Virus record (IMG/VR): IMGVR_UViG_3300034073_001874
Span: 1 to 39,060 of that record
DNA length: 39,060 nucleotides
Direction: 5' to 3' (one strand)
Origin: a virus
Shown here: in pieces, positions 1-13,901 of the stretch
How the letters are laid out: each line of letters starts with the position of its first letter
How positions within the stretch are numbered: the stretch's first letter is position 1
Position numbers and translations under genes: made by a program
The notes under the pieces: generated by a model
What the model was told of the DNA's origin: nothing
What the model saw: only the letters and a program-made list of their open reading frames with translations
Database searches by the model: none

Positions 1-405
1 AACTGCCGAAACAACAACTTCAGCAAGCAACTCGACAATCAAATTTAGATTGCCAGTGTCACCCAAACGAAGATATTGATCAGTAAGACCAGCAACCTTG
101 TTGCCTTTTACATAAACATTTACAACATAAGGACCACCAACGCGAACACCACGAAACGCAAAACGTCCAGCGGCATCTGTTGTGACCTTATTTACTGTAT
201 TTGAAGGAACGTGGATCAGTTCAACAACTGCTCCTGTTGTTACTTCACCACTTGAATCAACAACTGAACCAGAAGCACTTGCTGCTGTTTCTTGTGCGGA
301 AACTGGCATTGAGCCAATTGCGCCAAAGAGAATAGCAGTAGCCGCTACGAAAGAGAGAATACTCTTTCGGGTGTTGCTGAGGATTTTTTCTTTAAGATCG
401 CTCAT
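1..405 (-). CDS. Secreted carboxypeptidase-regulatory-like domain protein, probable N-terminus of an Oar/TonB-dependent receptor-like protein (partial)
   Basis: The frame is open through the left edge, so only the first 135 residues are visible. The start ATG (403-405) follows an AAAGGAG Shine-Dalgarno with five-base spacing. Residues 1-38 form a signal peptide: a basic N-terminus, the hydrophobic core SILSFVAATAILFGAIG, and a likely cleavage after PVSA. Residues 45-110 look like a carboxypeptidase-regulatory beta-sandwich (GSVVDSSGEVTTGAVVEL, then TTDAAGRFAFRGVRVGG). The segment LAEVVVSAV resembles the TonB-box region after this domain in Oar-like outer-membrane receptors. It has its own promoter. 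The family assignment is inference; another secreted phage adhesin with the same fold remains possible because the barrel lies outside the window. Confidence 0.6.
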   Translation of the reverse strand, partial: MSDLKEKILSNTRKSILSFVAATAILFGAIGSMPVSAQETAASASGSVVDSSGEVTTGAVVELIHVPSNTVNKVTTDAAGRFAFRGVRVGGPYVVNVYVKGNKVAGLTDQYLRLGDTGNLNLIVELLAEVVVSAV

Positions 406-445
406 TTCAACTCCTTTTTGCTACTAAAGAAACTTGTAGAAATCT

Positions 446-454
446 GGGGGGGGG
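446..454 (-). repeat. Homopolymer run of nine (C9 on the transcribed strand) in the 5' leader
   Basis: Nine consecutive G on the plus strand read as C9 on the minus strand. The run lies between the predicted promoter (477-505) and the Shine-Dalgarno of the receptor-like gene that starts at 405. Tracts of this length are prone to slipped-strand length change. Confidence 0.85.
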
Positions 455-512: not shown

Positions 513-626
513 TTAGTAAAATAATCCATATGCAATGCACCACAATTCCAATAACGCCATATAAATCACATATAGTATCGGTAATGCTACAATAAAAGCA
601 AATATTTTTGTAATAAAATCATCCAT
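513..626 (-). CDS. Small single-pass membrane protein (37 aa)
   Basis: The start ATG (624-626) overlaps the end of the upstream glycosyltransferase gene by eight bases (ATGGATGA), which suggests translational coupling. The peptide begins MDDFITKIFAFIVAL and is almost entirely one hydrophobic helix with a short polar N-terminus. No family is recognised. A longer open frame upstream lies inside the glycosyltransferase gene and is rejected as the start. Confidence 0.6.
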   Translation of the reverse strand: MDDFITKIFAFIVALPILYVIYMALLELWCIAYGLFY

Positions 627-1281
627 ATTTGTTAAAATTCTCTTTATGAGTTCTGTAATACAATAACCCTTGTGGAATGTGCGCGAAAGAAGCGAGTTCT
701 TTTTGCGCATTCATGTACATAACCTTATCTTCTTCTGTGTATTTAGAATTTGGTTGAATCTTCTTAAATCCAAATTTTTTCCCCAACCAGGTTCTATAAA
801 CCATAGACCCATGATGACCGCTTCTACGATCCCAATAATAATCTGGATTTAGTGGTTCACCAATCGCAGTTCTTGCCAAAATATTCTTTTTATGATCTTG
901 TTTTGGTACTCTAATGTTATAGAATGTTTTTAATTCCGTACCTGTAACGATAATATCGTAATTCACAACATCAGCGTCTTCATTCAAAAATCTCTCAACA
1001 GCATCACTGCGCAACCAATTATCTGCACCGATAAACATATAACGATCAGTTGTTACCCTCTGAAGCATATCATTAAAATTAGCAACAGTTCCAAGATTAT
1101 CCTTTCTCAACACAAATTCAACTTCAGGATATATCTTTGGGAGATGTTCGCAATCACCTGCTGCATCATCCACAAATAAAATTTTATCAGGTTTTTTTGT
1201 CTGCGATAATAAAGTTTCAATGCAATGACCTGCAAGATGACCGTAATGATACGAGGCAACAATAATTGTTATCGATTCCAT
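619..1281 (-). CDS. Family 2 glycosyltransferase, copy A
   Basis: A 220-residue GT-A fold glycosyltransferase. The N-terminal beta-strand ITIIVASYHYG is followed by PDKILFVDDAAGD, which carries the nucleotide-sugar binding aspartates, and by YMFIGADNWLRSD, which supplies the DxD-like region. The ATG at 1281 is chosen because AAGGA lies six bases upstream; the frame also has an upstream TTG. It begins just after the stop of its paralogue (copy B), and the two share long identical blocks such as YPEVEFVLR and GADNWLRSDA. It presumably transfers a sugar to a phage or host surface glycan; donor and acceptor cannot be read from sequence. Confidence 0.85.
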   Translation of the reverse strand: MESITIIVASYHYGHLAGHCIETLLSQTKKPDKILFVDDAAGDCEHLPKIYPEVEFVLRKDNLGTVANFNDMLQRVTTDRYMFIGADNWLRSDAVERFLNEDADVVNYDIIVTGTELKTFYNIRVPKQDHKKNILARTAIGEPLNPDYYWDRRSGHHGSMVYRTWLGKKFGFKKIQPNSKYTEEDKVMYMNAQKELASFAHIPQGLLYYRTHKENFNKYG

Positions 1282-1283
1282 GA

Positions 1284-1901
1284 TCAATCCTTATTGAAAT
1301 TTTCTCGATGTTTACGATAATAAAGTAATCCCTGTGGAACATGCGAAACTGTCGCACCAGCATTTACCATACAGTCCCACAAACGCCAATCTTCTTCAGT
1401 ATGGTCAGTAATTGCATCGCGTTTTTTATAACCAAATCTTTGTGCAAGTTTGGTATTGTACAACATTGAGCCGTGATGTTTCATTGCTCTAGACCAATAA
1501 TAATCTCCTTGGTAACTAATAACTTCTGAACTGTGCCATCTTGCTGTATCGCTTTTCAGCGTCCCAGTTAACACTATGTCATAAGTTACAATATCGGCTT
1601 TTTGAGTCATTAAAATTTCTATGGCATCTGATCGAAGCCAATTGTCTGCACCAACAAACATACACCTGTCAGTTTGAACTCGTTGAAGCATATCATCAAA
1701 GTTATCGACAACTCCATAGTTCTTTTCGCGCAACACAAATTCCACTTCAGGATATAATTTTGGAAAGTGCGCACAGTCACCAGCGCCATCATCTACGAAT
1801 AAAATTTTATCTGGCGTTTGTGATTGAGCAAGTATACTCTCAATACAATGTCCTGCTAAATGCCCATAACGATAAGAGGCAATAACAACAGTAACAGTCA
1901 C
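1284..1901 (-). CDS. Family 2 glycosyltransferase, copy B
   Basis: A 205-residue GT2 enzyme and tandem paralogue of the next gene. The strand VTVVIASYRYG, the acidic motif PDKILFVDDGAGD and CMFVGADNWLRSD match copy A position by position, and both end in a GLLYYR.H.ENFNK motif. The start is taken as GTG at 1899-1901, which overlaps the stop of the upstream dioxygenase as GTGA and has GAGG eight bases upstream. A longer frame to 1985 would read through the dioxygenase gene and is unlikely. Acts in the glycan cluster 513-4221. Confidence 0.85.
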   Translation of the reverse strand: MTVTVVIASYRYGHLAGHCIESILAQSQTPDKILFVDDGAGDCAHFPKLYPEVEFVLREKNYGVVDNFDDMLQRVQTDRCMFVGADNWLRSDAIEILMTQKADIVTYDIVLTGTLKSDTARWHSSEVISYQGDYYWSRAMKHHGSMLYNTKLAQRFGYKKRDAITDHTEEDWRLWDCMVNAGATVSHVPQGLLYYRKHRENFNKD

Positions 1902-2629
1902 GGAATCATCCTCGGATCGATATTCGGAACAACTTGACCGTTTATCATATAATGCGGATAAGTCCTTGCTGCCTTTGTTCTGCAAAAGCCATTCATATAA
2001 GTCATTCGATCTGCATTTGAATTATTCTTTTCACTTCCATGAACAATCATCACAGACCAAATCAACACACTACCTTGTGTAGCAGTATACTTTTTACCTT
2101 TCAATTCTCCACGTTCAAATTTACGCAAGTTTTGCGGTTTAGGTATTCTCATAGTTTTATGAGAACCCTCGATGAACTCAATAGCACCATTGTCTTCAGT
2201 TATATCGTCAACTGCTATGATTGTTTGGAAATAATCTTCTTCGACGTCGTCTGTGAATATACTGGGTTCTCTAAAGATAGTATCTTGATGCCAAGCAAAT
2301 TCGTCCAAATCACCTTTTTCTCTAAAATAGATCTGATTGTTAATTTGACGAACATCATCACCAATAAACTCTCGCACAAGATCGCTCATAGAGTGACTTA
2401 TTCTAATTTGATTTATCGTTTGATTTGCTAATGCTGGGAAAAAGATTAAGGACTTTTTATTATATGCTTGTTCGCTCGGAGAATGAGGATATCCCGCATC
2501 TTTAATTTGTTTATCAGTTACTGTATAAGCCGCTTCTTTTATAGATTTACATTCAGTGGGTGTGAAGACGTTTGGAATTACAATAATTCCTTTTTCTTGA
2601 TATTCTTGTTTAAGAGAGGAAAGATTCAT
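1898..2629 (-). CDS. Phytanoyl-CoA dioxygenase (PhyH)-like 2OG-Fe(II) oxygenase
   Basis: The 243-residue protein has the PhyH layout: an N-terminal LKQEYQEKGIIVIPNVFTPTEC segment (broken here as LKQEYQEKGI and IVIPNVFTP), the iron-binding FAWHQDTIF (HxD), then the distal histidine in MIVHGSEKN and the arginine in DRMTYMNGF that would bind 2-oxoglutarate. The family hydroxylates small molecules or modified sugars and amino acids. It sits between a methyltransferase and glycosyltransferases, so a sugar or glycan-linked substrate is inferred. The ATG at 2629 is preferred over an in-frame TTG at 2641; the ribosome site is weak, suggesting coupling to the upstream gene. Confidence 0.82.
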   Translation of the reverse strand: MNLSSLKQEYQEKGIIVIPNVFTPTECKSIKEAAYTVTDKQIKDAGYPHSPSEQAYNKKSLIFFPALANQTINQIRISHSMSDLVREFIGDDVRQINNQIYFREKGDLDEFAWHQDTIFREPSIFTDDVEEDYFQTIIAVDDITEDNGAIEFIEGSHKTMRIPKPQNLRKFERGELKGKKYTATQGSVLIWSVMIVHGSEKNNSNADRMTYMNGFCRTKAARTYPHYMINGQVVPNIDPRMIP

Positions 2630-3249
2630 ACTCGAAGCCAAACGCTACTGCCGCGAACTGCACCAAAATTTCTTTTTATGTCTTTCGGCACAAAGGGATA
2701 TTTTTCAATAAGTTTATCATTTGCCATGATAGAAGTCAAATGATTGTTCACAATTAAATCATAACGAGACGATAACAACTCAACATAATAATGCTCATTC
2801 CATTTAGACATAATTGGATCAGTTTTCCAATCATCTGGATAATCGTCAGGTCTAAAGTAATCGTGGAACTGAAGTAAAACGCCTTTTTTAAGTTTTGGTA
2901 AAATTTTGAATAGAATATGTTCTACGTCTGAGCCTTGATAAACTTCATGACTAGAATCAACAAATAAGATGTCATCTTTTTCTAAAGATTTAAAAATTTC
3001 AATCGGCACTTCTTGAACTAGTTGTTCGTTATATGAAATTTCTGGGTATTTCGCGCGAGGCTTGGGGTCGATTGCAATAACGTCGACGCCTGAACGATAC
3101 GCTAGGAAGGTGCTATAGCCACATCCAATTTCAATTGTTCGTTTTGCGCCCTTAAGAAAATGCCAATAAGTTAATGCGTCCAATGGAGGGAATTGATCAT
3201 TATCCCATTCAAAATCTTTTGGGAAGTCTTGTACATTAAGTTCTAACAT
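2626..3249 (-). CDS. Class I SAM-dependent methyltransferase (Methyltransf_24-like)
   Basis: 207 residues. Motif I reads TIEIGCGYSTFLAYRSG, followed by the acidic end of strand 2 in VDVIAIDPKPR. DDILFVDSSHEVY and LLQFHDYFRPDDYP match the post-motif pattern of the TylF/Methyltransf_24 group, which often methylates sugars. It overlaps the upstream deacetylase stop (TAATG at 3249) and its own stop overlaps the dioxygenase start, so these genes are one transcriptional unit. The substrate is not determinable; sugar O-methylation is the likeliest role given the neighbours. Confidence 0.78.
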   Translation of the reverse strand: MLELNVQDFPKDFEWDNDQFPPLDALTYWHFLKGAKRTIEIGCGYSTFLAYRSGVDVIAIDPKPRAKYPEISYNEQLVQEVPIEIFKSLEKDDILFVDSSHEVYQGSDVEHILFKILPKLKKGVLLQFHDYFRPDDYPDDWKTDPIMSKWNEHYYVELLSSRYDLIVNNHLTSIMANDKLIEKYPFVPKDIKRNFGAVRGSSVWLRV

Positions 3250-3761
3250 TAGATATAACTTCTAAAGATCTTATAGTTATAATTAGGATCAGTTAAATCT
3301 TTGGTTCCTTGATGAACGCTGTATGCCATTTTAAAACCCGCTTCTTTCACACACTCAATCACAAGATCATTGTATGTTCCATAAGGGTATGCAAAATATT
3401 TCATGGGAAACGGAGGTGTGACCTCTTTCATAATTTCATTACGATCAAGTTTAGTCAAATCGCGATGCGACCAAGTGTGCCAACCTAACTTAAAATCATA
3501 CTTGGCGCATAGTTCATAAACTTCTTCCCAAGTACAATAATCTTCAAGAGCAGGAACATGAGCAAGATCAAAATGATTATTGCCGCCCATGAAGTCGCCC
3601 ATAACAAACATAATTCCCGATTTGCCAACTAAAACGTCTTGATTGTCGTATACGTTTTTATAGATGCCATCGAATCCAATTGGTTCGTGACACGCAAGTA
3701 TTTGTTCTCGCGTGTTATAGTTTGAATGCTTATAATTGCCAATGTTATGCGCTAACTTCAT
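3249..3761 (-). CDS. Polysaccharide deacetylase (NodB-like)
   Basis: 170 residues resembling a compact carbohydrate esterase 4 domain. GWHTWSHRDLTKL corresponds to the metal-binding H(S/T)xxH motif, and FAYPYGTYND corresponds to the downstream catalytic groove motif. An aspartate-containing early motif (GIMFVMGDF or EPIGFDG) could supply the metal and catalytic acids, but I cannot assign it with certainty. The family removes N-acetyl groups from chitin-like or peptidoglycan sugars. It has no signal peptide, so a cytoplasmic sugar or glycan intermediate is the probable substrate. It overlaps the upstream methyltransferase by 17 bases. Confidence 0.75.
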   Translation of the reverse strand: MKLAHNIGNYKHSNYNTREQILACHEPIGFDGIYKNVYDNQDVLVGKSGIMFVMGDFMGGNNHFDLAHVPALEDYCTWEEVYELCAKYDFKLGWHTWSHRDLTKLDRNEIMKEVTPPFPMKYFAYPYGTYNDLVIECVKEAGFKMAYSVHQGTKDLTDPNYNYKIFRSYI

Positions 3762-4221
3762 ACAAGATCACCGATTGAACGTATTCTCGATATTTAAACT
3801 CTTGAACGGCAATTGGTGTGCCGAAATTATATGGAATTAGCCAATCTTTAATGCCAGCAATCAACACATGACGATAAGCACAATTATGAATCCAATTATA
3901 AATTTGTTCATGATTGTATTGTTTATACAATGTACCTGTAGTCATAACAAGATCATACATTCCATCTGGCTCATGCACTCTTTGTACATTTGCTGGAAAT
4001 CTTGCTGCAGCAAGATCAGATATTTCTAATCCATGAATATTTGTTGCAGGTAAATCTGTAGTGACGAATCCTTCACCACACCCAATATCTAACGCTTTAC
4101 GATAATGCGTTTTGAACATTGATAAGATTTTTTGTTTTCTTATTAAATCGTCTTCGGTAGTTCTATATGCCCAAGGATCTGGATTGATATACCAACTTTC
4201 TAGTTCTTCTTTAGTTTGCAT
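3745..4221 (-). CDS. SAM-dependent methyltransferase (NodS/Methyltransf_11-like)
   Basis: 158 residues. The SAM-binding motif I is KALDIGCGEGFVTTDL, followed by the acidic IHGLEISDLA and then MYDLVMTTGTLYKQ, the usual motif II region. The start at 4219-4221 (MQTKEELE) directly follows the upstream stop, and TTTGGGA serves as the ribosome site; an in-frame start at 4254 would lie inside the upstream gene. The region after the SAM fold is short, like NodS-type N-methyltransferases. It is followed by a deacetylase, and deacetylation then N-methylation of an amino sugar would make a coherent pair. That pairing is inference. Confidence 0.78.
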   Translation of the reverse strand: MQTKEELESWYINPDPWAYRTTEDDLIRKQKILSMFKTHYRKALDIGCGEGFVTTDLPATNIHGLEISDLAAARFPANVQRVHEPDGMYDLVMTTGTLYKQYNHEQIYNWIHNCAYRHVLIAGIKDWLIPYNFGTPIAVQEFKYREYVQSVILYEVSA

Positions 4222-4222
4222 T

Positions 4223-4711
4223 TTAATCCCAAAGGTTCTGATAATATTTTCCAAACAAACGAAAACCGTTCTTTTTACGATCCCAGTATGCTTTTGATTT
4301 TACATAATCAAACTCACCAGGAGAGACAAGAACTAACTCATCAAATTTATTACCTTCTTTCTTTACACGCTTGTACTTTGGCTTCTTGATGTAAAAGTTT
4401 GGATCGTGATCTTTTGCATGCTCGTTGAATGTCCAGATCATTTCTTTCATGATCCAATCCCAACGCTTAAAGTGATTGGAGTCAATATCCCATTCATCCT
4501 TTTTTGGTTTGGCAGCAGTCGAACGAAGATGCTCAGGAACATCTTCATCATCGGTGCACGGTGCGCCATGTTGAGTCTTGCGCAACTGTCGAAGCATCGG
4601 AAGAATGATGTCAGCAAGAGTATGATCCATGTTCCATGTGTCCCATGGATCAATGTGAATTGACTTCCTCTGCTTACCGTTTCGTGGATACTTGCCAATC
4701 TTAATCTTCAT
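4223..4711 (-). CDS. Conserved phage protein of unknown function
   Basis: A 162-residue soluble protein. It carries the recognisable block DPWDTWNMDHTLADIILPML followed by KTQHGAP and DEDVPEHLR, a pattern I recall as very common in marine and T4-like phages without an assigned function. It is rich in Trp, Lys and Asp and has no transmembrane segment or signal peptide. It starts at an ATG after the 29-residue basic peptide gene and ends one base before the methyltransferase start. It may be a packaging or replication accessory factor, but nothing in the sequence proves a role. Confidence 0.75.
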   Translation of the reverse strand: MKIKIGKYPRNGKQRKSIHIDPWDTWNMDHTLADIILPMLRQLRKTQHGAPCTDDEDVPEHLRSTAAKPKKDEWDIDSNHFKRWDWIMKEMIWTFNEHAKDHDPNFYIKKPKYKRVKKEGNKFDELVLVSPGEFDYVKSKAYWDRKKNGFRLFGKYYQNLWD

Positions 4712-4713
4712 AA

Positions 4714-4803
4714 TTACGACTTCTTACGTCTCGCCTTTCGTTTCTTCGAACCTAGTTTCGCGCGACCCTTTCCGAATCCTTTTGTACCTGTTTTTGCTGG
4801 CAT
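4714..4803 (-). CDS. Very basic 29-residue peptide
   Basis: A short gene with an excellent ribosome site (GAGGAG, six bases before ATG 4801-4803). The peptide begins MPAKTGTKGFGKGR and ends in a run of Lys/Arg (KKRKARRKKS), so it is strongly cationic and probably binds nucleic acid. It fills the gap between its neighbours almost exactly, which supports it being real. No family recognised. Confidence 0.65.
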   Translation of the reverse strand: MPAKTGTKGFGKGRAKLGSKKRKARRKKS

Positions 4804-4813
4804 GATATACTCC

Positions 4814-5101
4814 TCAACAATCTTCTGGACCAATAAATGATTTTTGCATATTTTTTATAGTATACGATTTATCATTGAATGTATATTGAGTTTCGTTAGT
4901 TGAAGGTTCTGGTACATTATATCCTAAAATAAGTTCCTGATTGTCTCCAATCGGATAACCGCTTGCCTTCAAAAATCCTGTGATCTCGTGTAAAATCGTA
5001 CTCACACTTTTTGGATTTTCGAAAGAAACAGTTACAATTTTCGCGGCATCATCAGAATATGATACTGTTTCGCCTTCATAGGTTAAAGTAATTTTAGCCA
5101 T
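4814..5101 (-). CDS. Hypothetical protein (95 aa)
   Basis: A small soluble protein starting MAKITLTYEGETV. Its start overlaps the stop of the upstream zinc-motif membrane protein by eight bases. It has alternating beta-type segments and ends in PEDC. No motif or family is recognised; it may be a small beta-rich phage accessory protein. Confidence 0.6.
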   Translation of the reverse strand: MAKITLTYEGETVSYSDDAAKIVTVSFENPKSVSTILHEITGFLKASGYPIGDNQELILGYNVPEPSTNETQYTFNDKSYTIKNMQKSFIGPEDC

Positions 5102-5276
5102 AAAATGTTCCTACCATTATAAGAATACCAATAAGAATAACAACACCAAGTTTCACGATCAACGGCATTTCTGGTTTTATTTCATTTGGGCAACGCCCCT
5201 GATTCCAGTCACAACCAGGACCAATTCTTTTATTGCAATAAAAACAAACTTTACCTTCATCTCGGTACTTTTTCAT
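5094..5276 (-). CDS. Small cysteine-motif membrane protein (60 aa)
   Basis: The start ATG 5274-5276 is preceded by GAGGG; the TTG further upstream is less likely. The N-terminal half contains CFYCNKRIGPGCDWNQGRC, four cysteines that could form a zinc site. The C-terminal half is a hydrophobic helix (LIVKLGVVILIGILIMVG). A zinc finger tethered to the inner membrane is what the sequence shows; the role is unknown. Confidence 0.65.
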   Translation of the reverse strand: MKKYRDEGKVCFYCNKRIGPGCDWNQGRCPNEIKPEMPLIVKLGVVILIGILIMVGTFYG

Positions 5277-5348
5277 CGTGCCCTCTGAAGACAATTTTCT
5301 ATTGCTGTTGAACCGAAGTTTTAACGATAAAAGGTTTTTCTTTTTTAA

Positions 5349-5585
5349 TCACAACAGACCTTTCGATTTAAAGTGTTCTTGAAGATTGTCAAAACCGCCA
5401 ATATACTCGCCATCGAGAAAGATCTGAGGAACTGTGCGGGCAAGAGGAACAGATTCAAGTAACTGCTCTTTCGACCAGTCGACTCCAATCTTGCGCTCTT
5501 CGATTTCATATCCTTTACTCTTGAGTAGAGCGAGTGCTGAAACGCAATAAGGACAACTCACTTTAGACCAAACGATGGCTTTCAT
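5349..5585 (-). CDS. Glutaredoxin
   Basis: A 78-residue thioredoxin-fold protein with the dithiol active site CPYC near residue 11, the cis-proline motif TVPQIFLDGEYIGG, and the GG(F)D..Q glutathione-binding segment. This is the full length of a phage or bacterial class I glutaredoxin. It probably reduces ribonucleotide reductase, and the window encodes a class II NrdJ with a C-terminal cysteine pair that would need such a reductant. The link to NrdJ is inferred from family biology, not from adjacency. Confidence 0.9.
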   Translation of the reverse strand: MKAIVWSKVSCPYCVSALALLKSKGYEIEERKIGVDWSKEQLLESVPLARTVPQIFLDGEYIGGFDNLQEHFKSKGLL

Positions 5586-5621
5586 ATATTATACCTTGTA
5601 ATGTTTAACAAGTCAACGAAA

Positions 5622-5696
5622 TGGTAGCGGGGGATGGAGTCGCACCACCGACCTGTGGATTATGAGTCCACCGTTCTGCTACTGAACTACCCCGCG
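5622..5696 (-). tRNA. tRNA-Met(CAT), initiator-like acceptor stem
   Basis: Anticodon loop CTCATAA. The 5' end reads CGCGGGG with T8, and the 3' side ends CCCCGC then T, A73 and an encoded CCA, so position 1-72 is a C x T mismatch, as expected of bacterial initiator tRNA. The D-stem pair 11-24 is T-A (elongator-like), and only two of the three anticodon-stem G-C pairs of initiators are present, so initiator identity is likely but not certain. Confidence 0.85.
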
Positions 5697-5701
5697 AATT
5701 C

Positions 5702-5821
5702 TTATTTAGTTTGCTTTTTTGGTTCTTTCTTCTTTCCGAAGATTTTATCCCAATTATCGTCAAATTGTTTTCTTGGGACACTAAATGGGCGTGGCTTGCT
5801 TCCTTTCCCGCCAGTGCTCAT
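5702..5821 (-). CDS. Conserved phage small protein (39 aa)
   Basis: The ATG 5819-5821 overlaps the stop of the HNH gene (ATGA), and the gene ends just before the tRNA. The peptide begins MSTGGKGSKPRPFSVP and continues FDDNWDKIFGKKK, a pattern I recall from many marine T4-like phages, usually in this neighbourhood. It is basic and probably intrinsically disordered. Function unknown. Confidence 0.7.
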   Translation of the reverse strand: MSTGGKGSKPRPFSVPRKQFDDNWDKIFGKKKEPKKQTK

Positions 5822-6390
5822 GCTGCCAGCCTCCAAACACGACTGTTCTTCGGAATGCTTGCTTTCAGATATTCCATTTGATCAGCAAGCACCTTACGAT
5901 TCTTTAATAGTATACGCTCATGCACAGTTGGTGCATAAGGAACATATAGAAGATGCATTCTTGCTTCTTCTGGTGTGCGATTACCTTTCTTGTGATTACA
6001 TGAACGGCAGGCAGTTACACAGTTGTTCCAGTGATTACCACCACCACGAGACTTTGGATGAACGTGATCAATTGTTAATTGACTTGTACTAAACTCATCT
6101 CCACAATATGCGCAGATATGATGATCTCGAGCATAGAGTGTCATACGATCAGCAAACAAAGTTGATTGATTATAGAATTTGTCGCCTAACAAAGGACCAC
6201 TTACGCCAATGATGCAAGAAATATCAATGCGCGATTGTTCGCCATGTTCATTATGACCGCCGAACATGGTTTTCATTTTTTCGCCCAATTCCCAGAGAAC
6301 TTTCTTCTTGGCATAGTAACACGCAGCCATTTCAAAGTTCACCCAGTCTTTAGGCATCCCGCCTTTATCGACAACTAATACAAGAGACAT
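5818..6390 (-). CDS. HNH endonuclease
   Basis: A 190-residue protein with a complete HNH domain at about residues 90-150. ICAYCGDEF supplies the first zinc ligands, LTIDHVHPKSRGG carries the DH of the catalytic beta-beta-alpha-metal motif, and WNNCVTACRSCNHKKGNRTPEEA gives the asparagine and second CxxC. The N-terminal 85 residues form a conserved lead domain. In cyanophage-type genomes this HNH protein is widespread; it may act in DNA processing or as a mobile nuclease. Its stop overlaps the start of the 39-residue gene. Confidence 0.9.
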   Translation of the reverse strand: MSLVLVVDKGGMPKDWVNFEMAACYYAKKKVLWELGEKMKTMFGGHNEHGEQSRIDISCIIGVSGPLLGDKFYNQSTLFADRMTLYARDHHICAYCGDEFSTSQLTIDHVHPKSRGGGNHWNNCVTACRSCNHKKGNRTPEEARMHLLYVPYAPTVHERILLKNRKVLADQMEYLKASIPKNSRVWRLAA

Positions 6391-6408
6391 TACATCCTCA
6401 CTTTCACA

Positions 6409-7254
6409 TTATTTAGTTTCAACTAGTTCAAGTTTACTGAATGCATTTCCTTCGCGAAGATCATCATTAATATACACTGCTTCAGTTAAAAGCCACAGTT
6501 GAGCGCCTTGCTCTTCGCAGAAGTTTAACAATGCAGCAGAATCTTTCGGAAAGCAAGAACCACCAAATCCCAATTTACCATCTGGTCCTGGTACTCGCCA
6601 GTGAGTTGGACCAAGTCGTTTATCCAATACGGCAATTTCTGAAATCTTATTATAATCAACATCAATCTTATCGCAAAGAGTTTTAAATTCATTCGCAAAT
6701 GTGACTTTGGTCGCTAAGAAGCAATTTGCAAGATACTTAAAGAGTTCGGCTTCTTTCGTTGTACGCTCGATAATGTGAGCAACGTTATCGACCTTTGCAT
6801 TAAACTCTTGATAAATGATTTTCATAACTGCTGAGATGCCTGCATCATCAGCACCGATAATGATTAGTGGTTGATGACGGAAATCGTTATATGCATTGGC
6901 TTCTGTTAAAAATTCTGGATTGAAGCCGATTGTCATATTGAAATCTGAGGCAAGACGTTGCGCAGTTCCTGGCACAACGGTCGATTTAATTACAACATAT
7001 TTACGACGATCAACTTGAGCAATATCGTCAATTACACTAGCGACAATAGAAGTATCGCAAGCACCATCTTCTCTCATTGGAGTTGGAACGCAAACGAAAA
7101 TGATATCAGATTGATCCACAAACTCTTCAAAAGTCGCGACAGTGCGCTTCGATTCTTCAACATCCCAAACAAGCGTATTGAAAACATCTTTAAAGTTTTC
7201 ATACATTGCGCCACCAACAAAACCGCGACCAATGATTCCAATTGTATAACTCAT
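6409..7254 (-). CDS. UDP-glucose/GDP-mannose dehydrogenase family protein, short form
   Basis: 281 residues. The Rossmann motif GIIGRGFVGGAM binds NAD, VPTPMREDGACD and VVIKSTVVPGT follow, and GFGGSCFPKD contains the catalytic cysteine. TEANAYNDF and FNPEFLTE match the linker region. The C-terminal UDP-binding domain of full-length enzymes (about 400 residues or more) is largely missing. The family oxidises nucleotide sugars to uronic acids. The ATG at 7252-7254 is chosen because GGAG lies five bases upstream; a longer frame would run into the tRNA. Confidence 0.85.
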   Translation of the reverse strand: MSYTIGIIGRGFVGGAMYENFKDVFNTLVWDVEESKRTVATFEEFVDQSDIIFVCVPTPMREDGACDTSIVASVIDDIAQVDRRKYVVIKSTVVPGTAQRLASDFNMTIGFNPEFLTEANAYNDFRHQPLIIIGADDAGISAVMKIIYQEFNAKVDNVAHIIERTTKEAELFKYLANCFLATKVTFANEFKTLCDKIDVDYNKISEIAVLDKRLGPTHWRVPGPDGKLGFGGSCFPKDSAALLNFCEEQGAQLWLLTEAVYINDDLREGNAFSKLELVETK

Positions 7255-7269
7255 ATCAACTCCATTAAT

Positions 7270-7346
7270 TGGTGCCTTCGGACAGATTCGAACTGTCACT
7301 GTTTAGTTCCTAAGACTAACGCCTCTACCAGTTGGGCTACGAAGGC
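7270..7346 (-). tRNA. tRNA-Leu(TAG) by anticodon, with an unusual short variable loop
   Basis: Acceptor GCCTTCG pairs with CGAAGGC, A73 and CCA are encoded, the T-loop is TTCGAAT, and the anticodon loop CTTAGGA sits on a TTAGT/ACTAA stem. The variable region is only five bases (ACAGT), whereas bacterial leucine tRNAs have a long variable arm. The D-stem is three pairs, as in class II tRNAs. Charging identity is therefore uncertain. Confidence 0.8.
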
Positions 7347-7353
7347 AAATAAT

Positions 7354-7986
7354 TTATTTCTCAAATGTTCTTCCCCTTATCCATCCAACTGGAATATCTT
7401 GCACGCTTTTTATTTTCATGTTAGACTTTCCATCAGTAATCCAAAAAGTTCCATATTGTGAGTTCTTATTCCCTTTTTGGTTTTCTGAATTCTTCATGGC
7501 TATGATCTTTTTTGTTTCGTCACTATGTCTTTTACCCAAAAATGATTGTTGACCTTTTTTGCGCTCAGAAATCTTTTCTTTAGTTTTGTTGTTATGATTT
7601 TTGCCAAAGAAAACGCCTTTTGGGTAGTATTGTTTTCTTTGTTTTTCCATCATTGACATATGTTGTTTATTGTGAGTTGGATTATTATACCCCTTTGAGT
7701 TTAGATAATCAAACCCACCGAATCCACCTTTCTTGAGATTGTATGTGTTGTTCTCTGACAAGAAATCTTCAGTCACAATCTCTGCTTCTTTGACGAACAT
7801 ATCCTCTGGATTATCAAAAACAAACAAAATTTCTTTCTTAAAATTTTTAACTCCATATTTTTGGATGGCGTGTTTGAGATATTTCCCAGAACCCAAATAG
7901 TCGTCATTCAGGTCAACGGTCTTATGAGTTCCAATATAGAACTTGCCGTTGACCTGATTTGTCGTTTTATAAACGATATAGAACAT
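7354..7986 (-). CDS. GIY-YIG free-standing homing endonuclease with NUMOD-like DNA-binding repeats
   Basis: 210 residues. The GIY-YIG module is at residues 2-90: FYIVYKTTN, then KFYIGTHKT, a Lys/Arg-rich helix, and a conserved glutamate-bearing segment. The C-terminal half carries repeated NUMOD3-like helices (NKTKEKISERKKG and GKRHSDETKKI) typical of Seg and I-Tev type nucleases. It lies between two tRNA genes, and a T4-type late box is 23 bases upstream of the start. The ribosome site AGGAAATTCCT is self-complementary, which may limit translation. Confidence 0.88.
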   Translation of the reverse strand: MFYIVYKTTNQVNGKFYIGTHKTVDLNDDYLGSGKYLKHAIQKYGVKNFKKEILFVFDNPEDMFVKEAEIVTEDFLSENNTYNLKKGGFGGFDYLNSKGYNNPTHNKQHMSMMEKQRKQYYPKGVFFGKNHNNKTKEKISERKKGQQSFLGKRHSDETKKIIAMKNSENQKGNKNSQYGTFWITDGKSNMKIKSVQDIPVGWIRGRTFEK

Positions 7987-8008
7987 AGGAATTTCCTGCT
8001 ACTATATC

Positions 8009-8016
8009 TATTTATA
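8009..8016 (-). promoter_or_regulatory. T4-type late promoter box TATAAATA
   Basis: An exact TATAAATA on the minus strand, located 23 bases before the ATG of the GIY-YIG endonuclease. T4-like phages use this single -10-like element with a gp55-type sigma factor for late transcription, and T4 homing nuclease genes commonly have such a private late promoter. Confidence 0.6.
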
Positions 8017-8041
8017 AAAGTTCGAGTCTTGACTGAGACTC
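8016..8041 (-). terminator. Weak terminator-like hairpin after tRNA-Ser
   Basis: On the minus strand GAGTC and GACTC pair across an eight-base loop shortly after the end of tRNA-Ser and are followed by GAAC and TTTT. The stem is only five pairs, and the T run overlaps the late box of the next gene. Confidence 0.3.
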
Positions 8042-8046
8042 AAGGG

Positions 8047-8133
8047 CGGAAGTGGTAGGATTCGAACCTACGAGACCCGTAAAGATCTGCTTGTTTTCAA
8101 GACAAGTCTATTTAACCGCTCTAGCACACTTCC
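8047..8133 (-). tRNA. tRNA-Ser(TGA)
   Basis: Class II tRNA with a long variable arm. Acceptor GGAAGTG/CACTTCC, discriminator G73, anticodon loop CTTGAAA, T-loop TTCGAAT. The 3' CCA is not fully encoded (CCC follows G73). Confidence 0.92.
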
Positions 8134-8137
8134 AAAT

Positions 8138-8497
8138 TTATTTTCTCAAACTGTGTCGAGTTGGTTTCCCATTTTCATCAACACATACAAAAACCATTTC
8201 ATCAATATTAACTATAATCCTTTGAGAAGTCAAGTCGCGCACTTGCACTTCAAGAGTTATACTAGTGCTTCCGACTTTCTTCAACGCAACTCCAATTTCA
8301 ACAACATCACCTTGGCGGGCAGGAGCAACAAAGTTGATCTCTGAAATGCTCTTAGTGACAACTCGTTTGTGGCGAGTTTCAATGGCTGCGTAAATTGCAG
8401 CCTCTTCGTCAATCCATTCCAAACACCGCCCACCGAACAGCGTATCATTCGCGTTCAGGTCTTCAGGCTTGACCAACTTCCTTGTTAGGAATCTCAT
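8138..8497 (-). CDS. Acyl-CoA thioesterase, hotdog fold (YciA-like)
   Basis: 119 residues, the size of a single hotdog domain. The signature NDTLFGGRCLEWIDEEAAIYA has the GG...L.W.DE arrangement of the YciA/BFIT thioesterase family, with the acidic residue on the central helix, followed by VTKSISEINFVAPARQGD, the substrate-tunnel strand. The family hydrolyses acyl-CoA to free acid and CoA in the cytoplasm. It lies immediately after tRNA-Ser and overlaps the upstream small gene by 35 bases. This is a metabolic gene of apparent host origin carried by the phage; its target acyl-CoA is unknown. Confidence 0.85.
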   Translation of the reverse strand: MRFLTRKLVKPEDLNANDTLFGGRCLEWIDEEAAIYAAIETRHKRVVTKSISEINFVAPARQGDVVEIGVALKKVGSTSITLEVQVRDLTSQRIIVNIDEMVFVCVDENGKPTRHSLRK

Positions 8498-8807
8498 TTG
8501 TCACCTTATTATACTCTTTTAATATGAAAATATCAAGTGCTTCGACAATCTTACCAACTCTGTAATATTGATTATTCTTGGCTGCGTCAAGTGTTTGAAC
8601 TCGAAGCGCAGAAAGATCGCAAAGCAATCCATCAAATGTGTATTCTTTTGCGCGCACCTGAGCAAGTATATATCTATATTTTCCTGCGAATGTATATACA
8701 TTTGGATTTGGGATTCCGCTTGATGATGCACCTTTATTTTCTAATGCATCACATAACATATCTACATGCGGCTGAAGATCTTCAAAACGAAATTGTTTTT
8801 GTGTCAC
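8463..8807 (-). CDS. Hypothetical protein (114 aa)
   Basis: A soluble, mostly helical protein beginning MTQKQFRFEDLQPHVDML. No motif is recognised. It overlaps both neighbours (four bases at its start, 35 at its end), placing it in one operon with the thioesterase. Confidence 0.6.
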   Translation of the reverse strand: MTQKQFRFEDLQPHVDMLCDALENKGASSSGIPNPNVYTFAGKYRYILAQVRAKEYTFDGLLCDLSALRVQTLDAAKNNQYYRVGKIVEALDIFILKEYNKVTNEIPNKEVGQA

Positions 8808-9013
8808 AGTTTTCTCTTAATAACAAAATTCTGATCGTCATGTAAATGAATCCAACGTTCACCAAATTCAGAACCTTCTACTGGCTGAATTTTACCCCAA
8901 GGACCAGGGCGTTTGGATGAATAGTATGAGTCATATTTACGAATGAGTACCCATTCGATACCATGTTTTTTTAATATTTGTTGACCATATAAGGTCTTGG
9001 GTTCAAGAAACAT
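8804..9013 (-). CDS. Hypothetical protein (69 aa)
   Basis: A small basic protein beginning MFLEPKTLYGQQILKKHG with a Tyr-, Trp- and His-rich centre (WVLIRKYDSYY, WIHLHDDQNF). Start ATG at 9013; it overlaps the next gene by four bases. No family recognised. Confidence 0.55.
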   Translation of the reverse strand: MFLEPKTLYGQQILKKHGIEWVLIRKYDSYYSSKRPGPWGKIQPVEGSEFGERWIHLHDDQNFVIKRKL

Positions 9014-9035
9014 TTTTATTCATATAAGTCTCGGT

Positions 9036-9140
9036 TCATCTACCGTGACGCACTGCGCAATACGTCCTAGATTCCTCTTTTACAAAAGCAGCCATCGCTG
9101 TGCGACAAACCTTACACCGAAAGGTAGGGCGGCTGGTGAG
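9036..9140 (-). other. Open frame in phase after the stop codon of the preceding gene, with a cysteine motif
   Basis: Directly after the TAA at 9141-9143 the same frame stays open for 34 codons and encodes FRCKVCRTAMAAFVKEES then TYCAVRHGR. It has no start codon next to it; an internal ATG would leave only 19 residues. The CxxC plus a further Cys/His looks like half a zinc finger. It could be a read-through extension, a decayed exon of a longer ancestral protein, or chance. Confidence 0.35.
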
Positions 9141-9404
9141 TTATTTAGTCTTTTCTAGATCTATAAAACGAAGTTCTTGGATTGATTTGATTTCTTTCGG
9201 CGTTCGAACTCGTTTTGGAGTATGAGCGCCATCACAAACTGGGCATCTAGGAACACCGCAGTCTAACGCATGATGTTTTGCATAACGATGCTCATCTTTA
9301 ATGTCCACCCCAGCAAGTTTAGCAATTCGGACTTGCTTCTTAATTTTAGTGTGAGTGTTTGCTCTTCTTTGCGAGCGTTTCATCTTCTGTTCTTCGCTGG
9401 ACAC
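9141..9404 (-). CDS. Conserved basic zinc-motif protein (87 aa)
   Basis: The GTG start at 9402-9404 follows AGGGGG that overlaps the upstream stop. The sequence is strongly basic (KMKRSQRRANTHTKIKK, then VRIAKLAG) and ends with HALDCGVPRCPVCDGAHTPKR, a C-x4-C-x2-C cluster I recall from small conserved phage and bacterial proteins of unknown function. It probably binds nucleic acid. The frame continues after its stop codon (9036-9140). Confidence 0.65.
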   Translation of the reverse strand: MSSEEQKMKRSQRRANTHTKIKKQVRIAKLAGVDIKDEHRYAKHHALDCGVPRCPVCDGAHTPKRVRTPKEIKSIQELRFIDLEKTK

Positions 9405-9414
9405 TTTACACCCC

Positions 9415-10095
9415 CTACAGCCAATGGTTCAAGAGTTTTTCTGGTAACACCATTACATTATTAAATCGTTGTCGCGCAAAATGAAAACTTATTTGACAAA
9501 CAGCGCCAACTTTTTGAGTATGATTGTACCAGAGTTCATTTAATGCCTGAGTGTCTTTATGTTTCATATTTCGAAGAATCAATCCAGTTGCAAAGTATTC
9601 GTTTTGGGTTAAACTGTAACCAGAATTCACTTCTTCTGTTAAGTAGTTTACAATCAATTCCCAATCTGCTCTATATCGCCACTGATACATTGACTCAGCA
9701 AAATCAAACAATACGTTTGGAGATGGTGATGTTGGGTGTTTTCGTAAACCCATTGGAGAATCATTCTGATTCAAATCATTAATAACCGATTCAACCTCAA
9801 AGAGATTCGGAACGAGTTTATCGTCATAATATAAAAGATAATCGTAGCAAGTCAATTCTTTAAAAAGGTGTGGTAAGATCTTAGGAACCTTTGCCTGTTT
9901 TGCAGAAATATTTGAATCTGCTGTCGGTTCAACATTAAAGTAAATTGGTCGATAACCAAACGACTTAGAAATCGTATCTAAGAAATTTTCATTATTTGAT
10001 ACCAGATAATGCGGATATCGATTCTGAATCGGATATGGTTTGATCGTAGAATAATCGTTCAATCCACAATAAGTGGTATAAACCGCTAAACGCAT
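9415..10095 (-). CDS. Putative glycosyltransferase (DUF616/TOD1-like)
   Basis: 226 residues. The N-terminus MRLAVYTTYCGLNDY begins a Rossmann-like strand. AKVPKILPHLFKELTCYDY then LLYYDDKLVPN gives the acidic pair at the end of a strand expected for sugar-nucleotide metal binding, as in the DUF616 group. It ends with RHP-type and FARQRFNNV motifs. The start directly follows the upstream stop. It belongs with the other sugar-transfer genes of this region; the family call is by pattern and moderately sure. Confidence 0.6.
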   Translation of the reverse strand: MRLAVYTTYCGLNDYSTIKPYPIQNRYPHYLVSNNENFLDTISKSFGYRPIYFNVEPTADSNISAKQAKVPKILPHLFKELTCYDYLLYYDDKLVPNLFEVESVINDLNQNDSPMGLRKHPTSPSPNVLFDFAESMYQWRYRADWELIVNYLTEEVNSGYSLTQNEYFATGLILRNMKHKDTQALNELWYNHTQKVGAVCQISFHFARQRFNNVMVLPEKLLNHWL

Positions 10096-10096
10096 A

Positions 10097-10345
10097 TTAG
10101 CCAGCGGTAATAGTTTTTACACTACTCAAACGAAATGAACGCCACCCATTTACCTCAGTGTCCCAAACAGAAATGGTATCGCCACTATTCTCTTGAAGAA
10201 GTTGCGGAGCCGCAGTGCCACCAGGAAGATATTCTGTTAACAATGTACAACGCATAACTCTTTCTTCACCATTCAACTTGGTGAATGTCACAGTCAAAAC
10301 GTCATTGTTTAACATGTTCATAACATCTTGTCGATTAAAGTTCAT
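10097..10345 (-). CDS. DUF2693-like small protein
   Basis: 82 residues with the pattern VTFTKLNGEERVMRCTL, then YLPGG, then ISVWDTEVNGWRSFRLSSV, which matches the small SH3-like DUF2693 family found in many myoviruses. It is cytoplasmic, with no known function. It lies between tRNA-Gly and a glycosyltransferase and starts about 19 bases after the tRNA. Confidence 0.75.
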   Translation of the reverse strand: MNFNRQDVMNMLNNDVLTVTFTKLNGEERVMRCTLLTEYLPGGTAAPQLLQENSGDTISVWDTEVNGWRSFRLSSVKTITAG

Positions 10346-10363
10346 AACAATTCCCCTTTAAAT

Positions 10364-10437
10364 TGGAGCGGGTAGCGAGAATCGAACTCGCACGATAACC
10401 TTGGCAAGGTCACAGGCAACCATTACATCATACCCGC
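10364..10437 (-). tRNA. tRNA-Gly(GCC)
   Basis: Acceptor GCGGGTA/TACCCGC, T73 then encoded CCA, T-loop TTCGATT, anticodon loop TTGCCAA on a TGACC/GGTTA stem. Confidence 0.93.
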
Positions 10438-10454
10438 TTTACAAGTATATATTA

Positions 10455-10757
10455 TCACGCCATCAAAATACGATATAATCCTACTATATCCAACGTTGTA
10501 AGTAAAATATAATTCGCTAACATTCCAAAACTATTTCGCGTCCAAGCAGCCCACGAATACATAGCGCACCCTACAATCCAAAAAGGATAGATATATGCGA
10601 GCGGTGGATATGGAACGGTCAATGTCATTGCAAGAGTGCAACCAATACTGATCATCCATGCAACAACTTCTATACAAAAACGAAAAGGATAAGAATGATA
10701 ATCGTCTTTTGCCCAGTTCCATGTGTCTAACGCTGCTTGTTTTATTCGCACAACCAA
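10455..10757 (-). CDS. Small multi-pass membrane protein (100 aa)
   Basis: Three hydrophobic helices are visible: VVAWMISIGCTLAMTL, YIYPFWIVGCAMYSWAAW and MLANYILLTTLDIVGLY. The N-terminus contains a Trp/Lys-rich amphipathic start. The start is uncertain between TTG at 10757 and GTG at 10751; either overlaps the upstream 45-residue gene. No family recognised. Confidence 0.6.
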   Translation of the reverse strand: MVVRIKQAALDTWNWAKDDYHSYPFRFCIEVVAWMISIGCTLAMTLTVPYPPLAYIYPFWIVGCAMYSWAAWTRNSFGMLANYILLTTLDIVGLYRILMA

Positions 10758-10879
10758 TCATCCATGTAGTTATACTTTAGCCATTCTCTGCATATCTTCT
10801 TAATTTCTTCTGAAGAAAGATCGCTATTGGCTATGTAATTTAGCAATTCTTCAGCAGTTAAATTATTAAGATTCTTCAT
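10742..10879 (-). CDS. Hypothetical helical protein (45 aa)
   Basis: Starts at ATG 10877-10879, just downstream of tRNA-Gly(TCC). The longer open frame upstream runs through two tRNA genes and is spurious. The peptide MKNLNNLTAEELLNYIANS is amphipathic helical and ends YMDDWLCE. Function unknown. Confidence 0.55.
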   Translation of the reverse strand: MKNLNNLTAEELLNYIANSDLSSEEIKKICREWLKYNYMDDWLCE

Positions 10880-10892
10880 ACTATTCTCAATT

Positions 10893-10966
10893 TGGAGCGG
10901 TGTGCGAGAATCGAACTCGCTTAACCAGCTTGGAAGGCTGGGACACAACCAATATGCCAACACCGC
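10893..10966 (-). tRNA. tRNA-Gly(TCC)
   Basis: Acceptor GCGGTGT with its 3' partner ACACCGC, T73 and encoded CCA, T-loop TTCGATT, anticodon loop CTTCCAA on CCAGC/GCTGG. Confidence 0.93.
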
Positions 10967-10971
10967 ATTTC

Positions 10972-11056
10972 TGGTGCGACTGGTCGGACTCGAACCGACA
11001 TTCCTAACGGAGGCAGATTTTAAGTCTGCTGCGGATACCGATTTCGCCACAGTCGC
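10972..11056 (-). tRNA. tRNA-Leu(TAA)
   Basis: Class II tRNA with a normal long variable arm. Acceptor GCGACTG/CAGTCGC, A73, CCA encoded, anticodon loop CTTAAAA on GCAGA/TCTGC, T-loop TTCGAGT. Confidence 0.93.
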
Positions 11057-11061
11057 AAAAA

Positions 11062-11634
11062 TTATTCTTTCAATGACTCCATAATGTCATTGTATACTTG
11101 ATCCTGTTTGTCATGAACAAGATCCCAAATATGATCTGACCAAATATCAAAGTAAACATCGCTTTGTTCTTCTTGATCGAGTTCGCGGAGCGACGGAACC
11201 ATCTCGTGCATCATCTCTTCAATCTCGCCTTCTTCGCCCCACTCACATCCATCAATGATACCATCTTTGTTGTAAACATAGACGCCAAAGAAGTTTGGCA
11301 TTTCATCTTCATAAAAGACAGAGGCAATGAAGTCAGGATCAACAGAAGCAATCTGCTCAAAGAGCCACTCGATTCCTGCTTGTGGAAAACTCCAAGCAGA
11401 AACTGTATTGAAATAATCATCACCGCGATCTTCGAAGTGACACCACTTCGGACCAACGTTTTCTAGATTCCATTCATACAGATTAGTGACTTCTTTATCA
11501 AGACCGAAGATGTCGCTGAACCATTCATAACCTTTTTCTTCTGGTTGAATGCGCGAATAGAGTTCTTGTAACTTTGCTTTACCAGCATCGCTGAGTTTAT
11601 CAAATCGAACCGAAGTATTTACATGATTAGCCAT
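11062..11634 (-). CDS. YubB/DUF1281-like ferredoxin-fold protein
   Basis: 190 residues. The ATG at 11632-11634 has GGAG six bases upstream; the longer frame reads through tRNA-Pro. The layout NLYEWNLENVGPKWCHFED, then SAWSFPQAGIEWLFEQIAS, then FFGVYVYNKDGIIDGCEW, matches the YubB-like ferredoxin-fold family seen on plasmids and phages, in which a W..N.WG.KW motif is followed by the aromatic SAWSFP stretch. The C-terminus is very acidic (EEGEIEEMMHEM). No enzymatic function is established for the family. Confidence 0.7.
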   Translation of the reverse strand: MANHVNTSVRFDKLSDAGKAKLQELYSRIQPEEKGYEWFSDIFGLDKEVTNLYEWNLENVGPKWCHFEDRGDDYFNTVSAWSFPQAGIEWLFEQIASVDPDFIASVFYEDEMPNFFGVYVYNKDGIIDGCEWGEEGEIEEMMHEMVPSLRELDQEEQSDVYFDIWSDHIWDLVHDKQDQVYNDIMESLKE

Positions 11635-11657
11635 AACGATCTCCAGTTTTAAAAATT

Positions 11658-11731
11658 TCGGACAGAGAGGATTCGAACCTCCGACCCTCTGCTCCCAAAG
11701 CAGATGCACTACCAGGCTGTGCTACTGTCCG
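11658..11731 (-). tRNA. tRNA-Pro(TGG)
   Basis: Acceptor CGGACAG/CTGTCCG, A73, T-loop TTCGAAT, anticodon loop TTTGGGA on TCTGC/GCAGA. The 3' CCA is not encoded. Confidence 0.93.
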
Positions 11732-11777
11732 TATTCATATATTATACTCTATGTATGCTTACAAGTAAACTTAAATT

Positions 11778-11853
11778 TGGTGGGACCACTTGGATTCGAA
11801 CCAAGACTCAACGAATTATGAGTTCGCTGCATTAACCGTTATGCTATAGTCCC
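11778..11853 (-). tRNA. tRNA with anticodon CAT: elongator Met or Ile2 (lysidine type)
   Basis: Acceptor GGGACTA/TGGTCCC, A73, CCA encoded, anticodon loop CTCATAA on GCGAA/TTCGT, T-loop TTCGAAT. The CAT anticodon cannot distinguish elongator Met from Ile2, which requires TilS modification; an Ile(CAT) tRNA is known in T4. Confidence 0.88.
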
Positions 11854-11854
11854 G

Positions 11855-12403
11855 TCATTGATAGGTGTAAAGGAATTCAATTCGATCTAAAGATTGAATG
11901 TATCTTTTATCCAGTTGAGGATTATGTACGGGAGCCATGGGCAAATTACGAACAATGTTGCGTTTATAACGTTCATAAAAATCAAAATTCAAAAGAAACA
12001 ACTTACTGTTCGTGTACTTATGAAACCAATATGTTGCTATGGTTCCAGTTGTTGGTCTTGGAATTTTAATTTCTTCGACCATGGCTTCCCACGCTTCAAC
12101 CTCCCAGAAGTGAGTATGGTCATACCACTCTAAGGGAATCTTTTTCATGTTGAAACCTTTATTTGTTCCTGTGCCGCGAATAATATATTTTTCATTCATA
12201 GCATTTTTACTTTTATGAAATTCGCGATCATCGGTTCCAGTATTTAAAAACCATATGTCACATTCACCCCAACGACGACTTGTGTTAAGACGAACAACAA
12301 CACCATCAAATTCAATTTTAGTGTTGCTTAAATCTACTGCCGAACCAACGATTAATATATCTCTATCGTTGATAAATTCAACTATTTCTTTTTTTGAAAT
12401 CAT
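11855..12403 (-). CDS. Sialyltransferase-like (GT29-like) glycosyltransferase
   Basis: 182 residues. ILIVGSAVDLSN, then FDGVVVRLNTSRRWGECDIWF (shown as FDGVVVRLNTS and RRWGECDIWF), then IPRPTTGTIATYW and APVHNPQLDKRYI, follow the order of small GT29/sialyl-motif-like proteins of marine viruses: an early glycine-rich strand, a V.R.N motif, a PTTG motif and a late histidine. It probably transfers an acidic sugar or a related residue. ATG 12401-12403 is preferred over TTG 12409. It overlaps the upstream ParB-like gene by 26 bases. Confidence 0.62.
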   Translation of the reverse strand: MISKKEIVEFINDRDILIVGSAVDLSNTKIEFDGVVVRLNTSRRWGECDIWFLNTGTDDREFHKSKNAMNEKYIIRGTGTNKGFNMKKIPLEWYDHTHFWEVEAWEAMVEEIKIPRPTTGTIATYWFHKYTNSKLFLLNFDFYERYKRNIVRNLPMAPVHNPQLDKRYIQSLDRIEFLYTYQ

Positions 12404-12854
12404 CTGCAAACCAATTTTTTCTATCGTACACCCAAATCATAAACGTTGAATTTGTCATAAAAATTCTTTCAATATGATTGTTGTGAATTTCACATAATCG
12501 ATCGAAACTTTGAATGATCTTATCAGGTTCTTTTATTTTATCCCAATGCTTTTCTCGATACATAATAAGACAATTCACTTTTTCCAGTTTCAGTTGCTTA
12601 CAGGCTTCATACCTTTTCCCGCCATGCTCAACATGATAACTCCCATCTTCCATATACTTAACACAAATCGGATACTTGAGACCGATGTTTGGGTCTAGGA
12701 TTTCTGCTTTCATTTTTTCGATGGCTATTTGATAGCCCTCATGCGCACAAGTGTCCCACCAAATCTGGTCGCGCTCGGGGAAATTCAACTCATCATATCT
12801 TAGATATGTATGAACGAGTTTAAAATTTTGTTTGTGTTCGTTTTGAAAAATCAT
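12378..12854 (-). CDS. ParB/Srx-fold-like protein
   Basis: 158 residues. The central part YPICVKYMEDGSYHVEHGGK (VEHGGKRYEACKQLKLEKV follows) resembles the ParB nuclease-like motif in which a D/EGG.RR..A segment follows a beta-strand. It is Trp-rich near the N-terminus (DQIWWDTCAHEGY). In this glycan gene cluster the ParB-like fold is unexpected; it may modify or sense nucleotides. It overlaps the GT8-like gene upstream by 35 bases. Confidence 0.5.
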   Translation of the reverse strand: MIFQNEHKQNFKLVHTYLRYDELNFPERDQIWWDTCAHEGYQIAIEKMKAEILDPNIGLKYPICVKYMEDGSYHVEHGGKRYEACKQLKLEKVNCLIMYREKHWDKIKEPDKIIQSFDRLCEIHNNHIERIFMTNSTFMIWVYDRKNWFADDFKKRNS

Positions 12855-13733: not shown

Positions 13734-13747
13734 ATGATACTCCAAAC

Positions 13748-13852: not shown

Positions 13853-13865
13853 TCTATCATATATT

Positions 13866-13898: not shown

Positions 13899-13901
13899 AT
13901 A

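Follow-up and report, generated by a model that had tools for sequence, protein, structure and literature searches.

An Oar-type TonB-dependent receptor gene apparently kept by T4-like phages

The window, i.e. the whole stretch of DNA analysed, is an IMG/VR virus record of 39,060 bases. At its left edge, a minus-strand open reading frame starts with an ATG at position 405 and runs to position 1 and off the contig end, so that 135 amino acids are encoded within the window (Table 1). A ribosome-binding site, AAAAAGGAG, is located 5 bases ahead of the ATG and was rated good. The encoded fragment begins with a signal peptide that was recognized by inspection, with a basic n-region, a hydrophobic core at about residues 15-28 and a VSA-Q cleavage-like site. 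This is followed by a CarboxypepD_reg domain (PF13620), which was detected with Pfam at residues 45-122 (E=4.1e-13, 49.9 bits against a cut-off of 32.3) and was found independently in a six-frame search (7.6e-15). The fragment ends in a TonB-box-like segment, called by motif and by position before the plug only; in alignment, LLAEVVVSA of the window is matched by LLAEVVVQA and DLAEVVVLA in the phage relatives described below. The reading frame, signal peptide and TonB box are all clean. The original prediction of a phage-encoded, Oar-like receptor N-terminus, based on the signal peptide, the carboxypeptidase-regulatory-like domain and the AEVVVSA segment, is borne out by these features.

Table 1. 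Positions of the receptor fragment, of its leader and neighbors, and of a protease gene in a related phage
Feature	Position	Strand	Basis or remark
N-terminal 135 codons of an Oar-subclass TonB-dependent outer-membrane transporter	1..405	-	3' part past contig end
TonB-box-like segment LAEVVVSAV, at contig end	1..27	-	motif and alignment with relatives
CarboxypepD_reg N-terminal extension, PF13620	40..273	-	Pfam
Predicted Sec signal peptide, residues 1-38, cleavage after ...PVSAQ or nearby	292..405	-	inspection only
Ribosome-binding site and spacer (AAAAAGGAGTTGAA)	406..419	-	sequence
C9 tract in 5' leader of receptor gene	446..454	-	absent from L038 and L048 leaders
Possible 37-aa hydrophobic peptide ORF, between glycosyltransferase and receptor gene	513..626	-	by eye, no independent support
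Glycosyltransferase (PF00535), next gene upstream of receptor	619..1287	-	Pfam
S8 subtilisin-like protease, tail-fibre-like C-terminus	L138 9753-11615	+	95.8-kb phage G001

The receptor gene had been predicted to stand under its own promoter. This part does not hold for the window, as a consensus sigma-70 promoter is absent from the 213-bp gap upstream of the gene, and the nearest minus-strand promoter match in the window (410-383) overlaps the receptor start codon. Only one relative, L048, has a sigma-70-like promoter (TTGACA-17-TACACT), with a terminator upstream of it. The C9 tract in the leader is the only G/C run of at least 6 (or A/T run of at least 8) in the whole 39-kb window, and the leaders of the L038 and L048 receptor genes do not contain it. 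In front of genes for outer-membrane proteins, slippage at such a tract can cause phase variation. The glycosyltransferase upstream opens a phage cluster that is common to related T4-like phages. Two adjoining family-2 glycosyltransferases are present at 619-1985 (-), each matching one single gene of related phages with 45-60% identity; from the sequences, this pair beside the receptor gene suggests a duplication. In addition, twenty tRNA genes with many different anticodons were observed at 5622-16021 (-), which is a large set for 39 kb. At the right contig end, an open frame at 36740-39058 (-) encodes an acidic Ser/Glu-rich protein of at least 750 amino acids, which has no match in PHROG and Pfam and is related to positions 171200-172990 of the phage record G010.

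As a direct query, the 135-amino-acid fragment retrieved no relatives in IMG/VR, named phages or plasmids. A 29% match to MT837825, a 6-kb 'Bacteriophage sp.' record, was set aside as an unverified and unannotated gut contig, a nickel/cobalt ECF match of the fragment (E=0.013) was far below the cut-off and was dropped, and a 28-base match between window positions 8-34 and 29067-29094 looks like chance. The RG-x-R-x-GGPY motif is typical of Oar-like N-termini, and this was borne out by the later searches. A degenerate pattern of this motif matched one IMG/VR contig, IMGVR_UViG_3300021962_000054 (95,795 bases; phage G001), which contains an intact receptor frame of 1063 amino acids (L038). With the L038 protein as query, two more phage contigs were found: L048, with the first 596 residues of the receptor (82% identical to L038), and L049, with the last 143 residues (86% identical). 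No further phage contigs came up when the full-length family or the C-terminal part was used in alignment-based scans. L038 and L048 match the window fragment at 52-56% identity. At the sequence level, the receptor N-terminus is therefore far above chance, as it matches full and partial receptors in two other phages. L038 and L048 share only 51% identity in the stretch equivalent to the window fragment but 89% after it, so the N-terminal identity of the window copy probably understates the closeness of the full proteins. An extension of the sequence to the left had also been proposed; an exact search of IMG/VR with the contig-end sequence found no continuation of the window gene, and the rest was supplied by the homologous phage genes instead. 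Beyond codon 135, the window gene presumably resembles these relatives.

The three receptor-bearing contigs are phages. The L038 contig (95.8 kb) encodes a T4-type major capsid protein gp23 (2e-100; PHROG major head protein), and the L048 receptor adjoins genes for a gp45-type sliding clamp, a gp44-type clamp loader, RegA (6e-48) and Hsp20. Between the L049 record and G010, a gp23-bearing record of 173 kb, there are 72 ORF matches, and in L049 a block a few kb downstream of the receptor is 94-97% identical to G010. The window shares 32 ORFs with G010, with a median identity of 76% and up to 98%, and judged by these sequences G010 is the phage nearest to the window. The receptor gene is absent from G010 and from 33 other related records, many of which are fragments. 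Where it is present, it occupies two kinds of location. In L038 and L049, it is followed after about 7 and 2-3 kb, respectively, by one conserved gene (G010 4942-5364), and in L048 and the window it adjoins genes that in G010 are placed between hsp20 and a gene which, from its sequence, we take to be the DNA polymerase. The same pairs are found in the trees, L038 with L049 (98/74) and the window with L048 (86/65), neither being strongly supported. Sequences resembling intrinsic terminators were seen by eye 3' of the receptor gene in L038 and L049. Among the traits of an auxiliary gene (moron), phage location and absence from G010 were observed, and a promoter with an upstream terminator was observed in L048 only. 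Two further observations were made on the L038 contig. A porin-like outer-membrane protein gene (Porin_5, 5.5e-14) is located directly downstream of the intact receptor at 10228-11205 (+) and was not found in the other phage records searched. Upstream of the receptor, at 558-5776 (+), there is a row of short ORFs resembling 2-oxoglutarate/iron oxygenases, one of which was confirmed by PHROG.

The plug, barrel and C-terminal signal were read in these relatives, the window itself holding 135 codons only. L038 contains, in order, the Pfam domains CarboxypepD_reg (PF13620), Plug (PF07715, over the cut-off) and OMP_b-brl_4 (7e-39), and has no match in PHROG. Its AlphaFold model (pLDDT 84, pTM 0.82) has 22 barrel strands with 11 long and 10 short connections, as assigned by us from the predicted secondary structure, which in the model is the classic topology of a TonB-dependent transporter. 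The top Foldseek matches were FusA (1.5e-31) and YddB (1.3e-30), and VIA matches to solved TonB-dependent transporters had Z values of 29-36, including PirA (35.7), Cir (35.4), FecA (34.8) and BtuB (33.7), with FusA also within 34-36. The C-terminal ...GVKFKF, the aromatic signal for BAM insertion, is kept in L038 and L049. The plug and 22-strand barrel that the original prediction had asked to look for are thus found in the continuation of the gene in the three other phage contigs. A tail fibre, adhesin or other non-barrel protein was rejected, as the domains and fold of the relatives are those of a plug and barrel.

Between L038 and L048, identity is 89% in the plug, 90% in the strands and 88% in the extracellular loops vs 56% in the N-terminal domain. 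Compared with the bacterial receptor L056, the phage receptor is 74% identical in the loops and 70% in the strands. As placed by the model, the predicted extracellular loops are as conserved as the strands, both against the other phage copy and against bacterial copies. One predicted extracellular loop contains two conserved cysteines, 462 and 468 in L038 numbering. Over 468 codons, dN was 0.087 and dS 0.79, giving a dN/dS of about 0.11 beyond the N-terminal domain, and these substitution rates indicate that the receptor is under purifying selection beyond its N-terminus; pairs with the window copy, in which dS is saturated, were left unused. The N-terminal extension (56%) diverges fast, and its partner may differ between the phages.

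A true barrel could also mainly serve protection or adsorption control, by replacing, titrating or decoying a host receptor and so excluding competing phages or bacteriocins. TonB-dependent receptors commonly serve as receptors for phages and colicins. It has been shown that phages block such receptors, e.g., Cor and FhuA (PMC11436027), and the fold matches of the phage receptor include 8a60, a structure of FhuA together with the exclusion lipoprotein Llp. Loop conservation would likewise be required of a decoy for the same ligands. However, the loops lack the divergence that is expected of an escape variant, the plug and TonB box are kept even though a passive decoy would not need them, and a displayed receptor would tie up the phage's own progeny if the phage uses that receptor. 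This explanation is considered unlikely. Masking of the phage's own receptor, as first suggested for this gene, has also become less likely because the loops are conserved like the barrel strands.

The nearest bacterial relatives of the phage receptor were found in gammaproteobacterial metagenome-assembled genomes (MAGs) by an alignment search of bacterial genomes and are 70% identical to it along its whole length. When 200 genomes were sampled across the family, the best additional hit was a fragment with 76% identity, and only 18 genomes had any strong match. The full-length tree unites the phage copies in a single clade (100/100) that is sister to L055 and L056, from Steroidobacteraceae-like MAGs, and the phage gene probably derives from one close to those of such gammaproteobacteria. 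The window copy joins the phage clade in the N-terminal tree with moderate support (92/78), a placement that rests on 125 fast-evolving columns. L055 and L056 have the same domain order as the phage receptor. In contrast to the phage copies, they are chromosomal, with a conserved bacterial context of thymidine kinase, nuclease and phosphoribosyltransferase genes (read from translations). L055 (CAMCBU010000030.1) is titled Klebsiella pneumoniae; this title looks wrong because its receptor protein is 96% identical to that of the Steroidobacteraceae MAG L056 and the two are also syntenic. The GC3 is 0.26 for the window gene and 0.34-0.37 for L038 and L048, as opposed to 0.83 for the bacterial copies, and this composition points to a long residence of the receptor gene in phages. 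Since the distribution of the gene in bacteria is much wider, we infer that it was transferred from a bacterium to a phage. From the record names, the MAGs are presumably of freshwater and the phage samples of estuarine origin.

These data also bear on whether the gene truly belongs to the window phage or represents a chimeric contig end joined to bacterial DNA, or a truncated remnant. The gene lies at the very contig edge, and two other contigs break inside it, as occurs where similar copies coexist in a sample. However, its GC3 fits the neighboring phage genes and not the bacterial copies, its sequence is closest to the phage copies, the gene recurs in three other phage contigs (intact in one of them), and the window copy is undamaged in reading frame, signal peptide and TonB box, which makes an artefact or a remnant very unlikely.

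Cobalamin, needed by the phage ribonucleotide reductase NrdJ, had been offered as a possible ligand. Import of cobalamin for a B12-dependent reductase would fit the window, which encodes an adenosylcobalamin-type enzyme (TIGR02505, 336 bits, slightly below the cut-off of 340), and BtuB is among the structural matches. However, the phage with the intact receptor encodes the iron-dependent class Ia enzymes NrdA and NrdB instead, and receptors for other ligands match the fold equally well; the Z value of BtuB is close to those of the siderophore receptors, so the fold prefers neither clearly. This reading is weakened accordingly, because the BtuB match is no better than the others and the intact-receptor phage has class Ia NrdAB, and it appears highly improbable. 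Least probable is an exporter by which the infected cell releases a phage protein, as Oar of Myxococcus does for the protease PopC: the receptor shares its subclass and architecture with Oar, which is needed for secretion of the subtilisin-like PopC (PMC6434023), and in G001 a gene for an S8 subtilisin-like protease follows the receptor gene 2.8 kb downstream, but such a protease was present in only one of the four phages within the sequence examined, and its C-terminus resembles tail-fibre and virion structural proteins, so that it may be a virion part.

The reading that is preferred, with a probability of roughly 0.7, is that the window gene is part of a full-length Oar-subclass TonB-dependent transporter, which several T4-like phages retain as an auxiliary gene. 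This reading is carried by the structure of the gene, its location in phages, homology, the predicted fold and selection. In an infected cell, the host Sec system would export the phage receptor, the host BAM complex would insert it into the outer membrane with the C-terminal Phe as signal, and host TonB-ExbBD would energize it; no ton genes were found beside the phage receptor in the gene neighborhoods that were read. In this way, a cell whose own genes are being shut down would keep or gain the ability to take up a scarce ligand. Energized import is favored because the loops, plug, TonB box and C-terminal Phe are conserved together, as a ligand transporter needs; for the TonB box, AEVVVSA of the window corresponds to AEVVVQAG (L048), AEVVVLAG (L038) and AEVVIAAN (L056). 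From this, we infer import rather than export as the direction.

The Oar subclass of TonB-dependent receptors combines a CarboxypepD_reg N-terminal extension with a plug and barrel, and Oar of Myxococcus xanthus secretes the subtilisin-like protease PopC (PMC6434023). The phage receptor resembles this subclass in its signal peptide, PF13620 extension, TonB box, plug and 22-strand barrel. It differs from Oar of Myxococcus in being phage-encoded, and the likeness is one of domain architecture. Protease secretion is the role of the Myxococcus protein; on the phage side, the S8 protease gene of G001 is circumstantial. TonB-dependent receptors have been described before in phages. The marine megaphage Mar_Mega_1 carries a SusC-type receptor (PMC9723777), which is probably BFVD A0A8D9FQQ5; among viral models, the sole convincing match to the L038 model was a SusC-like receptor of an uncultured marine phage. 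Both are phage-encoded with a matching fold, but the Mar_Mega_1 receptor is of the SusC type, occurs in a megaphage and is 10% identical over the structural alignment, whereas the receptor described here is of the Oar type and occurs in T4-like phages. In the pelagiphage Polarivirus skadi, a protein annotated as TonB-dependent receptor is located among tail and capsid genes and was read by the authors as a hint to the host receptor (PMC10504331). The annotation name is alike, but the gene described here appears to be an auxiliary one outside the structural modules. Similar annotations exist in other phages and prophages (PMC6302217, PMC6193963). In the open-access literature searched, neither a description of an Oar-type receptor from T4-like phages nor a test of its selection was found. 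Phage TonB-dependent receptors as such are thus already published, and what is new here is the Oar type in T4-like phages together with its phylogeny and selection.

The auxiliary genes that phages carry usually reprogram intracellular metabolism. Judging from their genes, these viruses apparently install an uptake channel of their own in the cells they infect. A broader view, for which the odds seem about even, is that a lineage of T4-like phages of freshwater or estuarine gammaproteobacteria has domesticated an Oar-type transporter as a lasting part of the infection program and remodels the outer membrane of its infected hosts with a phage-encoded, energized gate for import or, as in Myxococcus, export. 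If true, lytic phages would also alter what an infected cell takes up or releases. As TonB-dependent receptors are favorite receptors of phages and bacteriocins, a phage carrying one raises the testable question of nutrient limitation versus competition in the course of infection.
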